A stretch of 64,000 nt of DNA, taken from contig NZ_LS974202.1 in the NCBI RefSeq assembly GCF_900157305.1, positions 992,001-1,056,000 on the forward strand, in the 5' to 3' direction. The notes beneath the pieces were generated by a model. That model was not told where the DNA came from. It ran no database searches and saw only the letters and a list, made by a program, of their open reading frames with translations. A program made the position numbers and the translations under genes. Every line of letters starts with the position of its first letter. Position 1 is the stretch's first letter. Shown in pieces: positions 4,756 to 64,000 of the stretch. This stretch comes from Mesotoga infera (lineage in GTDB: Bacteria > Thermotogota > Thermotogae > Petrotogales > Kosmotogaceae).

Positions 4756-6162
4756 TCAAGGGTTTCGCGGTTCGTAAGACCGCATTTCGAAGGATCTTTT
4801 CAGCAATTCGATCGATTCTCGGAAATCCTTCAGTTCGCCGAGTGCGAGCATCTGAACGATTATGTTGCCTATCGCCGTACCCTCTGCCGGTCCGGCGGTG
4901 ACGGGAAGACCCGTGAAATCGGCTATCAGCTGGCAGAGCAGTTGGTTCTTGACTCCCCCGCCCACTATGTGAAGCCCGTCGAGCCCGCCGGTAAACCTTT
5001 CCAGCTCTTTTCTGGTCAGCTCCGTCATTGCCGCTATGCCTTCCAGAGCCGTTCTTACTATTTCACCCCTGGTGGAAGGTATCGGACCATTTTCGGCGCA
5101 CTCCTCAAGAATCGCCCTTTCCATGCTTGCCGGTCTCTTGAAACGTGGCGATTCAACGTCTATCTTTCCGGAGAACGGTCTTGCCTCCCCGGCCATACGC
5201 ACAAGCGAGGGGTAGTCCAGCGACGGGTCTTTCGCTTTCCACTCTCTAAGAAGTTCCTGCACCAGCCAAAGCCCCGTGGCGTTTTTCAAAAGCCTGTATT
5301 TGCCTCCATAGCAGCCTTCGTTGGCGAAATTCAGTTCCAGCACTTCTCTGTCGCGGACTGGTGCGTCAAGCACCACGCCTTCAAGACACCAGGTCCCCGC
5401 GCTCACGAACATCGTTCTCCCGGAGAGGGGTATGGAAGCGACAGCCGAGGCGGTGTCGTGGGTGGCCGGGAGAACGACTTTCAAAGTGGTGCCAAGTTCT
5501 CTGGAAAGCGAGGGTGTAAGTCTTCCGACAACGGTGCCAGCCGGGACGATCGGGGTGAATATATCCGGCAGTGAAAAGAAGTCTATTATTTCTTCGCACC
5601 AATCTCCGACTGCGGGGTCGAAGATCTGGGTGGTGGTCGCGAAAGTGAATTCCGTTAGTTTCTCTCCACTCAAAAAGTAAGAGATCAAGGAGGAAATCGA
5701 AAGGAGAGAGTCGGCCTCTTTTAGAGCGCTATAACCTCTCCTTTTCATCGAAATGAGCTGAAAAAGCGTGTTGAACGGTTGGAACTGCGTCGGGGATCTC
5801 TCAAAGAGCCAGTCCCTTCCGGCGAGTCCGATGGCGTACTCCATCGAATCATCGCCGAACATATCCCTGTAATGTCGGGGATTGCCCAGAAGCTCTCCGG
5901 AGCCGTCCAGCAGACCGAAATCCACCCCCCATGTGTCCACGCCTACGCTCTGGAGCTCGACTCCGGAGTCGATTGCCTTGATGATGCTCTCCAGAGTGCT
6001 TTCATAGAGCGACAGGATGTTCCAGTGAGTCCGTCCGTTTACGGAAATCGGTCTGTTTGTAAAGCGCGAAACCTCTTCGATCGACAGTCTATCACCGTCG
6101 TATCTGCCGATGAAGGCTTTGCCACCAGAGGCACCGATATCGACAGCGAGAAAACCTTTCAA
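4756..6162 (-). CDS. FGGY-family carbohydrate kinase, rhamnulokinase-like
   Basis: Predicted to phosphorylate a ketose with ATP. It has the N-terminal FGGY start (VDIGASGGKAFIGRYDG), the substrate loop GVDTWGVDFGLL, and the C-terminal nucleotide-binding stretch HIVGGGVKNQLLCQLIADF followed by GTAIGN. At 468 residues it matches RhaB-type kinases in length. It starts at TTG 6162 with AAGGTGA six bases ahead and follows the PfkB gene by six bases. It is the last gene of the LacI-led operon. The true sugar (rhamnulose, fuculose or another ketose) cannot be read from sequence. Confidence 0.85.
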   Translation of the reverse strand: MKGFLAVDIGASGGKAFIGRYDGDRLSIEEVSRFTNRPISVNGRTHWNILSLYESTLESIIKAIDSGVELQSVGVDTWGVDFGLLDGSGELLGNPRHYRDMFGDDSMEYAIGLAGRDWLFERSPTQFQPFNTLFQLISMKRRGYSALKEADSLLSISSLISYFLSGEKLTEFTFATTTQIFDPAVGDWCEEIIDFFSLPDIFTPIVPAGTVVGRLTPSLSRELGTTLKVVLPATHDTASAVASIPLSGRTMFVSAGTWCLEGVVLDAPVRDREVLELNFANEGCYGGKYRLLKNATGLWLVQELLREWKAKDPSLDYPSLVRMAGEARPFSGKIDVESPRFKRPASMERAILEECAENGPIPSTRGEIVRTALEGIAAMTELTRKELERFTGGLDGLHIVGGGVKNQLLCQLIADFTGLPVTAGPAEGTAIGNIIVQMLALGELKDFRESIELLKRSFEMRSYEPRNP

Positions 6163-60486: not shown

Positions 60487-61497
60487 TTTCCTAGGGTTCC
60501 ACTCTATGCCGGGCTTAATCGTTTCCAGTAGTCTCAATTTCCTTCTGGCTTCCTTTATACCCATCTTCTTGAGTATGAACTTGCCCAGGGCGTATTCGAA
60601 GGGAAACCACGATACATGGCCTATAGGGATTATGTACCTTCTGGGTCTTTTGAAAGCCTCCCACAACTGTTTCCTCGTCTGGTAGGGAAGGGTTTTGTCG
60701 AAGAGCGCTTCGATCATGGTCACCCTGTTCCGGTCGCTGAACCCGGCGTAGGCTAAAGGGTCTATCTTGAGGAGCGGGTGGAGATCGGATTCAATCAACT
60801 GCCTGACGCTGGAGAATTCACGCAACCTGTTAACATCTCTTTTGAAGCGTTCTTCGAGACGCTTCTCATCGTTTAGAAAGCCTTCCGATCCCAGCCCTCT
60901 GGCGAATGAACCTCTCAGGGATTTGAGAACGGGAGAGCCCCATATTATCCGGGCCATGTTGCCGCCGACCGTCATCAGAATCATGCTCTTGATCCTGTCG
61001 TCCAGAGCGTTCACTATGGTTGCCACCATCCCTCCCAGACAGTAACCGAAGAGACAGTTGTTGTCCCACCAGATCTTCTCCTGCTGAAGAAAATCGATCG
61101 TCGAGAGTGTATCCACGACCGCCTGTTCCCAGAACTTCACGAGTCTGGACAGATCATGGGAGAAGTAATCTTTGCCGCTCGTGGAGCCTGAGGCGGTTCT
61201 GGTGTAGTTCCCCGGGAGGATCATTACTGTGGCCTGAAGCCCGGCGCTAGCCAGATGGCTTCCCATCCAGAAGAGAAAGGGTATATTCACAGTTCCCAGG
61301 CCGTGTAGAATAATTATGGAGCCGACCGGGTTCTCTCTGGGCGAGAAGTGATAAAGCTCGACATTCTCGCTGCCCTTTGCACTGTTGACGTATCTGGAGG
61401 GATATCTGATCAGCGAACAACGGTAATGTTTTCCCTTGAATATATATCCGCTGGAAAAATCTATTCTCTCTTTAATGTAAGAAAAATCCGGAATCAT
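60484..61497 (-). CDS. Alpha/beta hydrolase with a Cys nucleophile elbow
   Basis: A 337-residue hydrolase-fold protein. The oxyanion loop is IIILHGLGTVNIPF. The elbow reads LFGYCLGGMVATI, with Cys where Ser is usual, as in dienelactone hydrolase. A late His in IPIGHVSWFPFEY is a possible triad member. There is no signal peptide. Its ATG overlaps the stop of the ABC-like gene (ATGA), so the two are coupled. The substrate is unknown; polyester or lactone-type chemistry is a guess. Confidence 0.75.
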   Translation of the reverse strand: MIPDFSYIKERIDFSSGYIFKGKHYRCSLIRYPSRYVNSAKGSENVELYHFSPRENPVGSIIILHGLGTVNIPFLFWMGSHLASAGLQATVMILPGNYTRTASGSTSGKDYFSHDLSRLVKFWEQAVVDTLSTIDFLQQEKIWWDNNCLFGYCLGGMVATIVNALDDRIKSMILMTVGGNMARIIWGSPVLKSLRGSFARGLGSEGFLNDEKRLEERFKRDVNRLREFSSVRQLIESDLHPLLKIDPLAYAGFSDRNRVTMIEALFDKTLPYQTRKQLWEAFKRPRRYIIPIGHVSWFPFEYALGKFILKKMGIKEARRKLRLLETIKPGIEWNPRK

Positions 61498-62831
61498 ATT
61501 TCAACCCTCTCTACGCGTCCACATAGCTCCCGGCAGAAGCCGTCGTCGTCGCTGATTATCACGGCGATCTTGCCGGCTTCGACGATTCTCTGAAGCAGAC
61601 AGTTCAGGACTTTCAACAGCGATGGATCCAGTCCGATCGAAGGCTGTAAGAAGATGAAGAGATCGAAGGCTTTGAAGCCCATCTCTGCGAGTTCCCTGTC
61701 CTGGGTCGTTATGAGGGGGAGAAAGTTCTCGGCCAGTCCCATGGTTGCCAGATACTCTCTGACGGAGACAGGTGGCTCCCTGTTGACCAACGCCCATTTC
61801 TTGAAGGACCGGCGGAATTTGAAACTCTCCCTTTTTTGCAACATCTGACAGATCACGAAGCCGTTGTTTTTGTAGTTGGTTCGAAAGTACACCCTGTGCG
61901 AAGAAGTTTTACGGGCGAAACGCTCGAAGAAGTTCTTGGCTTCTTCGAATATCGGGACGGCGTTCTCTCTGAACGGGTTCTGACGGGTTATCGCCCTGGT
62001 GATCTCTCTCATCCCCTGTCTGCTTTTACAGAGCAGGCAGACGGTTTCTCCCTTCGTCAATCTCAAGATTTTGCCGGTGCCAGCCAGATCCTCCACAACG
62101 ATGAAGGGCTCGCCGGATCTGTTTTCGATAGGCGCCGGAGGTAGCGGACGAAAATCCGCAAGGAGTTCGTCGGCATTTTCAGCCGTAACATCTATGAGTC
62201 TGCCGCGTTCGATTATCGAAAGAGAATCACCCAACGACATGATCTCGGGGTCAACTGTGGTGAGAAGCACGGAAATTCCTTCGGCCGTAAATTCTCCCAG
62301 GAGTTTCAGGGCTCTCTTATGGAGAGGTCTGGACAGACCCGTCAGGGCGTCGTCTATTATCAGCAGAGAGGGTTTCGATGCGATGGCTGTGGCTATTTCG
62401 AGGAAAAATTGAGAGTCGCGATCTATTTCCATCGCCTTTTTCGAAGGATCAATTTCAAGACCGACCCTCTCGAGTATGGCTCCTGCCAGCTGGTTCATCT
62501 TCTTTCTACTTGTCAGGAACTGGCCGATGCCCAAAAAGATATTTTCGGCGAGCGTGAGGTCCGGAACCAGCATATATTCCTGGTGAACCATGGCCATTCC
62601 CAGTTTCCTCGCATCTTTGAAGCTTTCGATCTCCACCTGATGGCCCTCGATGTACAGGCTACCGCTATCGCGCCCGAGCTGGCCGGTAAGGATCTTCACA
62701 AACGTCGATTTGCCTGAACCGTTCAGACCCCCTATCACGTGAAGCTCGCCGTGTTTTATGTTGAAATCTATTTTATCCAGAACCTTGTGGCCATCGAACG
62801 ACTTTTCGATCGCTCTGGTTTCAAGTATCAA
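61494..62831 (-). CDS. Degenerate two-domain sugar-type ABC ATPase (RbsA/MglA-like)
   Basis: A roughly 445-residue relative of the tandem sugar ATPases. The N-terminal half keeps Walker A (GGLNGSGKSTFVKIL), the Q-loop region MVHQEYMLVPDLTLAENIF and a Walker B-like LLIIDDALTGLSRP. The catalytic Glu there is Asp, and the signature site reads MEIDRDSQFFLEIATA instead of LSxGQ. The C-terminal half has lost its Walker A (CLLCKSRQGM) and signature. No permease or binding protein is nearby. TTG 62831 is chosen eight bases after AGGAG; GTG 62840 is an alternative. A regulatory or non-transport role is likely. Confidence 0.75.
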   Translation of the reverse strand: MILETRAIEKSFDGHKVLDKIDFNIKHGELHVIGGLNGSGKSTFVKILTGQLGRDSGSLYIEGHQVEIESFKDARKLGMAMVHQEYMLVPDLTLAENIFLGIGQFLTSRKKMNQLAGAILERVGLEIDPSKKAMEIDRDSQFFLEIATAIASKPSLLIIDDALTGLSRPLHKRALKLLGEFTAEGISVLLTTVDPEIMSLGDSLSIIERGRLIDVTAENADELLADFRPLPPAPIENRSGEPFIVVEDLAGTGKILRLTKGETVCLLCKSRQGMREITRAITRQNPFRENAVPIFEEAKNFFERFARKTSSHRVYFRTNYKNNGFVICQMLQKRESFKFRRSFKKWALVNREPPVSVREYLATMGLAENFLPLITTQDRELAEMGFKAFDLFIFLQPSIGLDPSLLKVLNCLLQRIVEAGKIAVIISDDDGFCRELCGRVERVEI

Positions 62832-62921
62832 ATCCACCACTCCTGTGACTGTTGCCAGGGATATTACTATACTACCACTCGCGGCGGTTTCGAAAAAGTT
62901 CTACGGTGAATTTATTCTCCA

Positions 62922-63965
62922 TCAGGGTTGAACCAGAGGGATCAGGAGATACTGTCCGCTTTCGGGACTGCCGACGAGCAGGTTCTTCTCCTGTATCGAA
63001 AGGTTGAGCGCCTGGGCCTTCATTCTCGAAAGTACCGAATGCAGTCTGTGAGGGTCGATCTGAACGACGAAGCTGCCTCCGGAAAAGCTCGAGGCTATCG
63101 ACTCATAGCGCAGGTTGGCGGCTTTTAGGTAGAAGCTGAGAGTCGAGTTTTTCGAGATCATCAGCACCGAGAAGCCCTTTCTGGAAAGTCTTGTGATCTT
63201 TCCCAGCGCTATCAGTAGTTCTCTCCTCTCCACCCTGTGTCCACAGTTGTTTCTTATCAGCGAAATCGGTGGAGAGAAAGTAGTTTCATCGGTGCAGACG
63301 GAGAACAGTAGCGGTCCGACCTTGAAGCCGAGTTCGGATATTCCGACCCCGGTGTCTATCTCTTCGACCTTCAACTCCTCAAAGGCCTTTACCAGATGGC
63401 GAACGGTAACGTACGGGATCGAAAAGGCGAAACCGTACCTGGGCAGGGATTCTATAGAGGCTACCAGAACCAGCTTGCCGGCGGCGGCGGCCATGTAGGT
63501 CTTTTCTTCTTTCGAAAAGATCTCGATCGAATCTCCCTCCATTGAAGCTGCCGAAACGAAATCGAGTCCGTCTCTGAACTCTTTCAGCGAATAGCGGAAG
63601 GAGAATTCGAACTTTCTCTCCATGAGCGGCAGTTCTTCCGTCCGCGTTCTGTCGAGAGTAAGCGTCTCGGAACCCGTTGATATTTTGATCTGGCTTCCGT
63701 CCGTTGAGAAAGTAATAGTAGTATCCCTTTTGCCCGTCTTCAGAGCCCTGGCGTAATCGATCGGAACTGTGTACACACCAGTGAAGGGATCGACCTCGAT
63801 CGGGGAAGAGAACTCGAGCTTGGCACAGCCGTCGCTCGCGAAAAACTTCAGGCCCCGCCTGTGATAGATCTGGAAGTGACGATAAGTGGGCTCCACCGTT
63901 CCGGTGACCCTGTTCAAAAGGTCGATGAGTCTGGAGTACTCTTCGGAGTTGATCCTGAATTCCAT
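62922..63965 (-). CDS. Divergent DnaN-like sliding clamp protein
   Basis: A 347-residue protein with the pattern and length of the bacterial beta clamp (about 366 residues, three clamp domains). It has FFASDGCAKLEF near residue 40, where clamps show their ATD-type strand, SRKGFSVLMISKNSTLSF in the third domain, and the C-terminal strand GQYLLIPLVQP like the end of DnaN. Similarity is weak, so this is a second clamp or a clamp-like protein rather than clearly the replicative one. ATG follows GAGGTG, and the upstream gene's stop sits beside that site. Alternative: an unrelated beta-rich protein. Confidence 0.6.
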   Translation of the reverse strand: MEFRINSEEYSRLIDLLNRVTGTVEPTYRHFQIYHRRGLKFFASDGCAKLEFSSPIEVDPFTGVYTVPIDYARALKTGKRDTTITFSTDGSQIKISTGSETLTLDRTRTEELPLMERKFEFSFRYSLKEFRDGLDFVSAASMEGDSIEIFSKEEKTYMAAAAGKLVLVASIESLPRYGFAFSIPYVTVRHLVKAFEELKVEEIDTGVGISELGFKVGPLLFSVCTDETTFSPPISLIRNNCGHRVERRELLIALGKITRLSRKGFSVLMISKNSTLSFYLKAANLRYESIASSFSGGSFVVQIDPHRLHSVLSRMKAQALNLSIQEKNLLVGSPESGQYLLIPLVQP

Positions 63966-63973
63966 CGGCCACC

Positions 63974-64000
63974 TCAGAAAAGCGTTATCTGTTCTTTCTC
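63974..64000 (-). CDS. C-terminal end of an upstream gene, clamp-binding-type tail (partial)
   Basis: Only eight codons and the stop are in the window: EKEQITLF. The stop lies eight bases before the DnaN-like start, so the two genes are almost certainly cotranscribed. QITLF fits the beta-clamp-binding consensus Q-x-x-L-F found at the extreme C terminus of DinB/UmuC polymerases, MutS and others. The frame is inferred, because one other frame stays open through the junction. Confidence 0.5.
   Translation of the reverse strand, partial: EKEQITLF

Follow-up and report, generated by a model that had tools for sequence, protein, structure and literature searches.

The stretch of DNA considered here (the window, 64,000 nucleotides long) is G000:C1:992001-1056000 of the source genome, a single contig of 2.97 Mb. 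At its far end the reverse strand carries the last codons of polC followed directly by a gene for a second clamp protein, called clamp2 below. The features are listed here, the ribosome-binding site and the codons having been read from the sequence.

62922..63965 (-): clamp2 gene, an open reading frame of 347 aa
Residues 1-112, 113-236 and 237-347 of clamp2: domains I, II and III, with approximate boundaries
63969..63975 (-): clamp2 ribosome-binding site GAGGTGG, which shares bases with the polC stop codon TGA
63974..64000 (-): 3' end of polC, which extends past the window to G000:C1:1060212 and encodes a PolC of 1412 aa
63977..63994 (-): codons of the PolC C-terminal EQITLF, a QxxLF clamp-binding motif
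63825..63827 (-): clamp2 Cys47, within the domain I turn S/T-D-G-C; its partner by pseudo-symmetry alignment is E. coli beta H175
63294..63296 (-): clamp2 Cys224, on the final strand of domain II; its partner by pseudo-symmetry alignment is E. coli beta M362
63387..63419 (-): clamp2 IPYVTVRHLVK, residues 183-193, the start of domain II helix 2; R189 and K193 are invariant in 50/50 orthologues

Reading beyond position 64000 identified the upstream gene as polC, the product of which ends in ...LPEKEQITLF, and so bore out the original prediction that the gene cut by the window edge ends in EQITLF. That prediction also gave the clamp a client polymerase or repair protein of its own. A polymerase gene does adjoin clamp2, but PolC is the main replicative polymerase rather than a translesion or repair enzyme. 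The polC gene is preceded by ruvC in the source genome, and only 8 bp separate its stop codon from the clamp2 ATG, a spacing from which we infer a polC-clamp2 operon. No promoter-like site was found on the coding strand near the junction. On the other side of clamp2, window positions 61494-62840 (-) encode a sugar-import-type ABC ATPase, the second ATPase half of which seems degenerate by eye; an alpha/beta hydrolase-like gene follows with a 4-base overlap.

The window clamp2 protein gave zero family matches in a Pfam search, and as a single sequence it reaches only E=0.067 and 12.1 bits against TIGR00663, for which the cut-off is 137.65. It falls outside the DnaN equivalog as defined by a score over the curated cut-off (TIGR00663 / PF00712, PF02767, PF02768). 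A profile of 50 clamp2 orthologues matches 17 PDB chains, every one of them a beta clamp (best E=3e-8), and aligns over its full length with a profile of Thermotogota DnaN at 98.9% probability. The AlphaFold model of clamp2 (pLDDT 94.6, pTM 0.91) was compared by Foldseek and VIA-align, and the top matches are again all beta clamps, with Z 26-28 over residues 1-347; the VIA-align Z is 27.8 for T. maritima DnaN TM0262 (1vpk), at 13% identity, and 26.7 for E. coli beta (2pol). The T. maritima clamp2 orthologue, encoded at G090:C1:1409389-1410441 (-), is modelled with a pLDDT of 96.1 (its genome, G090, was recognised as T. maritima because the DnaN sequence is identical to 1vpk). The predicted structure has three domains of two beta-alpha-beta-beta-beta units each, and sequence homology to DnaN is supported with the domains in order. 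Shifted PDB profile matches (38-143 on 187-298) hinted at a circular permutation, which a domain-by-domain comparison ruled out: the colinear I-II-III order gives E 4e-18, the permuted orders 2e-12 and 7e-11. Clamp2 is a far-diverged DnaN homologue that, according to its model, has the complete and colinear three-domain clamp fold. The original prediction of a second, divergent DnaN-like clamp at 62922-63965 is confirmed by the profile matches and this predicted fold, together with the weak TIGR00663 score. Two observations that would have told against it, a model lacking the three-domain fold and an upstream gene with an end other than QITLF, were looked for and neither turned up.

An ancient, phylum-wide paralogue

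Clamp2 is present in 98 of 103 Thermotogota genomes, T. maritima among them, and nearly always in single copy. Canonical dnaN and PolC are each found in 100/103 of these genomes. In the source genome canonical dnaN lies at G000:C1:340575-341672 (271 bits), which answers the question, raised with the original prediction, of whether an ordinary clamp gene exists elsewhere. In a tree of 50 clamp2 and 22 DnaN sequences, clamp2 forms one side of a branch with 100/100 support, and close pairs of clamp2 genes give a dN/dS of about 0.08 (0.07-0.09). Clamp2 is an ancient, phylum-wide DnaN paralogue under purifying selection; the dN/dS values and the presence in 98/103 genomes rule out a pseudogene or remnant.

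In G003, G004, G064, G086 and G087 the profile search gave only pieces of canonical dnaN or nothing; clamp2 may be truly absent from these genomes, may fall in gaps of the assemblies or may have diverged too far. A tblastn search for relatives on plasmids and phages found none. A single-sequence search of genome contigs with the window protein returned only a near relative, from a Kosmotogaceae MAG (95% identity); distant homologues may exist in other phyla. Some clamp genes are irregular. The clamp2 gene of the complete genome G058 consists of two overlapping open reading frames (L051:4553-5572 and 5517-6101), a frameshift or a recent break. The second canonical dnaN of G036 is degraded, with two stops inside the reading frame (G036:C1:1818024-1819064; L124:2525-3565), and lies about 10 kb from the extra polC copy of that genome. 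G011:C55 encodes a third, canonical-like clamp (L127:3974-5467) that ends in MPIRL and that a long extension at the N-terminus brings to 497 aa; it sits in a provirus-like neighbourhood.

The arrangement seen in the window is much less widespread than clamp2 itself. According to gene coordinates, clamp2 directly follows polC on the same strand, within about 60 bp, in 30 genomes, all of families f1 and f2. It is unlinked to polC in genus g9 of f2 and in every other family, so that linkage does not accompany clamp2 wherever it occurs. Outside f1 and f2 its neighbours, named by eye in the loci read, include alaS (in T. maritima), ddl, ispG and others, and no conserved neighbour was found in those loci. 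The linked genomes all fall in one part of the tree, and the linkage may go back to a single event; as evidence of a functional tie between the two genes it is therefore weak. The original prediction had pictured a small, self-contained replication or translesion module, an idea that does not fit a gene kept across the phylum and unlinked to polC outside f1/f2.

The QxxLF cleft and the PolC tail

Sites were compared in an alignment of 50 clamp2 and 21 DnaN sequences with E. coli beta (identical to 1mmi), a comparison made on sequence at about 15% identity. The cleft positions, in E. coli numbering, are L155, T172, H175/R176/L177, P242, V247, V360 and M362. L155, R176 and P242 are invariant in the 21 DnaN. 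In clamp2, L155 is replaced by G in 40/50, R176 has given way to scattered residues, P242 is kept in 3/50 and V247 is gapped in 46/50. Measured against random columns, the cleft columns are strongly conserved in DnaN (p 5e-5) and no better than random in clamp2 (p 0.78). Judged by this alignment, the QxxLF-binding cleft has been lost from clamp2 but is retained by the DnaN proteins of those genomes. The loops that bring R24 and Q149 to DNA are likewise gapped in 50/50 clamp2.

These results bear on the reading of the locus in which clamp2 would be a dedicated processivity clamp of PolC that grips QITLF in the usual cleft. The 8 bp spacing, the 30 linked genomes and the fit of the PolC tail to QxxLF all favour such a pairing. 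However, the residues that would hold the tail are lost or deleted in clamp2 and retained in DnaN of the same genome, and the tail itself is not diagnostic of a dedicated clamp pair, because it is also found in the PolC of unlinked genomes and in PolC generally. Linked and unlinked genomes alike have a PolC with a QxxLF-type tail, of which there are a few variants (e.g. QITLI, QIQMF), and terminal QxxLF is the usual PolC motif, present in 98% of PolC (PMC3919608). The PolC QITLF tail most likely binds ordinary DnaN. We consider a dedicated PolC clamp improbable, and on the same grounds the clamp-client pair of the original prediction is not supported.

Several genomes of family f2 have a second, shorter PolC-like open reading frame of about 970-1020 aa, with 41-45% identity to the C-terminal half (L125:2665-5733 in G037, L124:14021-16936 in G036 and L126:3482-6451 in G048). 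The G037 copy ends in SQIPLF; the G036 and G048 copies have no terminal QxxLF.

Charge, channel and subunit interface

Clamp2 and DnaN differ sharply in charge. The median net charge is +6 for clamp2 vs -18 for DnaN, and the median pI 8.9 vs 4.8. In clamps, helix 2 of domain II lines the channel, and the channel helices of clamp2 have a mean net charge of +8.8 vs +1.3 in DnaN. R189 and K193 are invariant and R314 is nearly so.

The dimer interface has also changed. DnaN has a positive domain I face and a negative domain III face in 16/21 sequences, a pattern seen in 0/50 clamp2. The reverse polarity, negative on domain I and positive on domain III, is found in 32/50 clamp2, although interface columns shifted by -4 still give a negative/positive pair in clamp2. 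The interface charges of domains I and III in the source genome are (-2,+3) for clamp2 vs (+2,-3) for DnaN. Clamp2 interface positions 78, 106, 108 and 273 are hydrophobic in 86-100% of sequences; taken together, the interface columns show no more than average conservation.

One rival that draws on these data is a loader-independent basic tether, a monomer or open C-shape that hugs DNA like herpesvirus UL42/UL44 and would raise the processivity of PolC or another enzyme without closing into a ring. The basic protein with its basic channel helices, the disappearance of the salt bridges that canonical clamps have at the interface, and the position of the gene beside polC are all consistent with such a tether. 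The canonical cleft is also used by the clamp loader, so that loss of the cleft would fit as well. On the other hand, the positions that stay hydrophobic suggest that an interface persists, and we regard an open tether as rather unlikely. A second rival is a mixed ring of one clamp2 and one DnaN subunit with two unlike faces, comparable to the heterotrimeric archaeal PCNA. Nearly every genome does contain one basic and one acidic paralogue, but their interface charges are alike rather than complementary: the mean charge product is -5.1 and -6.2 for the two homodimers and +5.5 for the mixed clamp2/DnaN pair, with only one of 20 same-genome pairs below zero. A mixed ring is very improbable.

Compared with canonical DnaN (TM0262 1vpk; E. 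coli beta 2pol/1mmi), clamp2 has the same three colinear domains and the same predicted fold over its full length. It differs in being only about 13-15% identical and under the TIGR00663 cut-off, in the apparent lack of the QxxLF cleft and of the R24/Q149 loops, in being basic rather than acidic, and in an interface polarity that tends to be reversed.

A conserved domain boundary and the proposed role of clamp2

The strongest conservation in clamp2 falls on G22, E25, R29, D45-G46-C47, E143, P184-Y185, R189-H190, K193, C224 and R314. When the positions of the DnaN II/III cleft are projected by profile alignment onto the other domain boundaries, C47 maps to H175 and C224 to M362. The projected site is conserved in clamp2 at the I/II boundary, with a p value of 0.0014 that is only indicative since the idea came from the same alignment; the values are p 0.80 at II/III and p 0.87 at III/I. 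An earlier test of I/II conservation was discounted because its columns had been chosen after the data were seen. Of the 50 clamp2 sequences, 47 have both cysteines; the remaining three, which belong to family f11, have neither, probably through one loss.

A nearly invariant cysteine pair could also mean that the clamp fold has been recruited to a non-clamp role, either as a scaffold or as a sensor in which C47/C224 form a redox or metal site, DNA being no longer encircled. That the DNA loops and the cleft have been lost would agree with this, as would a gene context that, in the loci read outside f1/f2, is unrelated to replication. We doubt this explanation strongly, since the channel helices are the conserved, basic part of clamp2.

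The reading that we prefer, and hold with moderate confidence, makes clamp2 an accessory clamp that embraces DNA in a ring of its own, receives partners at a new site and leaves the QITLF tail to DnaN. Its work would lie in replication or repair, and the ring would most likely be a homodimer, presumed to close and kept apart from DnaN by the altered interface charges. The deletion of the R24/Q149 loops, the unremarkable conservation of the interface columns and the outcome of the -4 shift count against this reading. Contact with DNA would be made through the unusually basic channel (R189, K193, R314). Partners would be bound not in the decayed II/III cleft but at the new I/II boundary surface (G22, E25, R29, D45-G46-C47, E143, C224), and in the linked families the leading candidate partner is some region of PolC outside the tail. 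DnaN would remain the clamp that holds PolC by the QITLF tail. A broader model, which we offer only tentatively, is a Thermotogota replisome with two clamps: an acidic DnaN ring with QxxLF clients, and a separate, non-mixing basic ring without them, the client site of which is shifted by one domain (I/II, not II/III) and might include a redox-sensitive cysteine pair.

A literature search found no published description of a second Thermotogota clamp. The nearest described case is Bacillus DnaN-2, an ordinary duplicate that shows about 40% similarity to DnaN-1 and is able to join in replication (PMC3290774). Like clamp2, it is an extra dnaN-derived gene that stands beside a normal dnaN in PolC-using organisms (PMC3290774). 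Clamp2 differs from it in being 13-15% identical to DnaN, near-universal in its phylum and apparently without the client cleft.

Looser parallels with clamp2 are by analogy only, with a different subunit architecture and without an evident sequence relation. The eukaryotic-type 9-1-1 complex (Rad9-Hus1-Rad1) and herpesvirus UL42/UL44 are clamp-fold paralogues in which partner binding or loading is unlike that of the main clamp, and UL42 is a basic protein linked to a single polymerase.

In the usual view, bacterial replication runs on one clamp, which all partners reach through one cleft. Here a second clamp has been kept under purifying selection across a phylum to which T. maritima, a model of structural genomics, belongs, apparently without that cleft and seemingly built not to mix with DnaN. 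If clamp2 does encircle DNA, it would be, to our knowledge, the first case in bacteria of two clamps that divide the work in a manner comparable to PCNA and 9-1-1. With clamp2 one can ask directly whether clamp function is separable from QxxLF binding.
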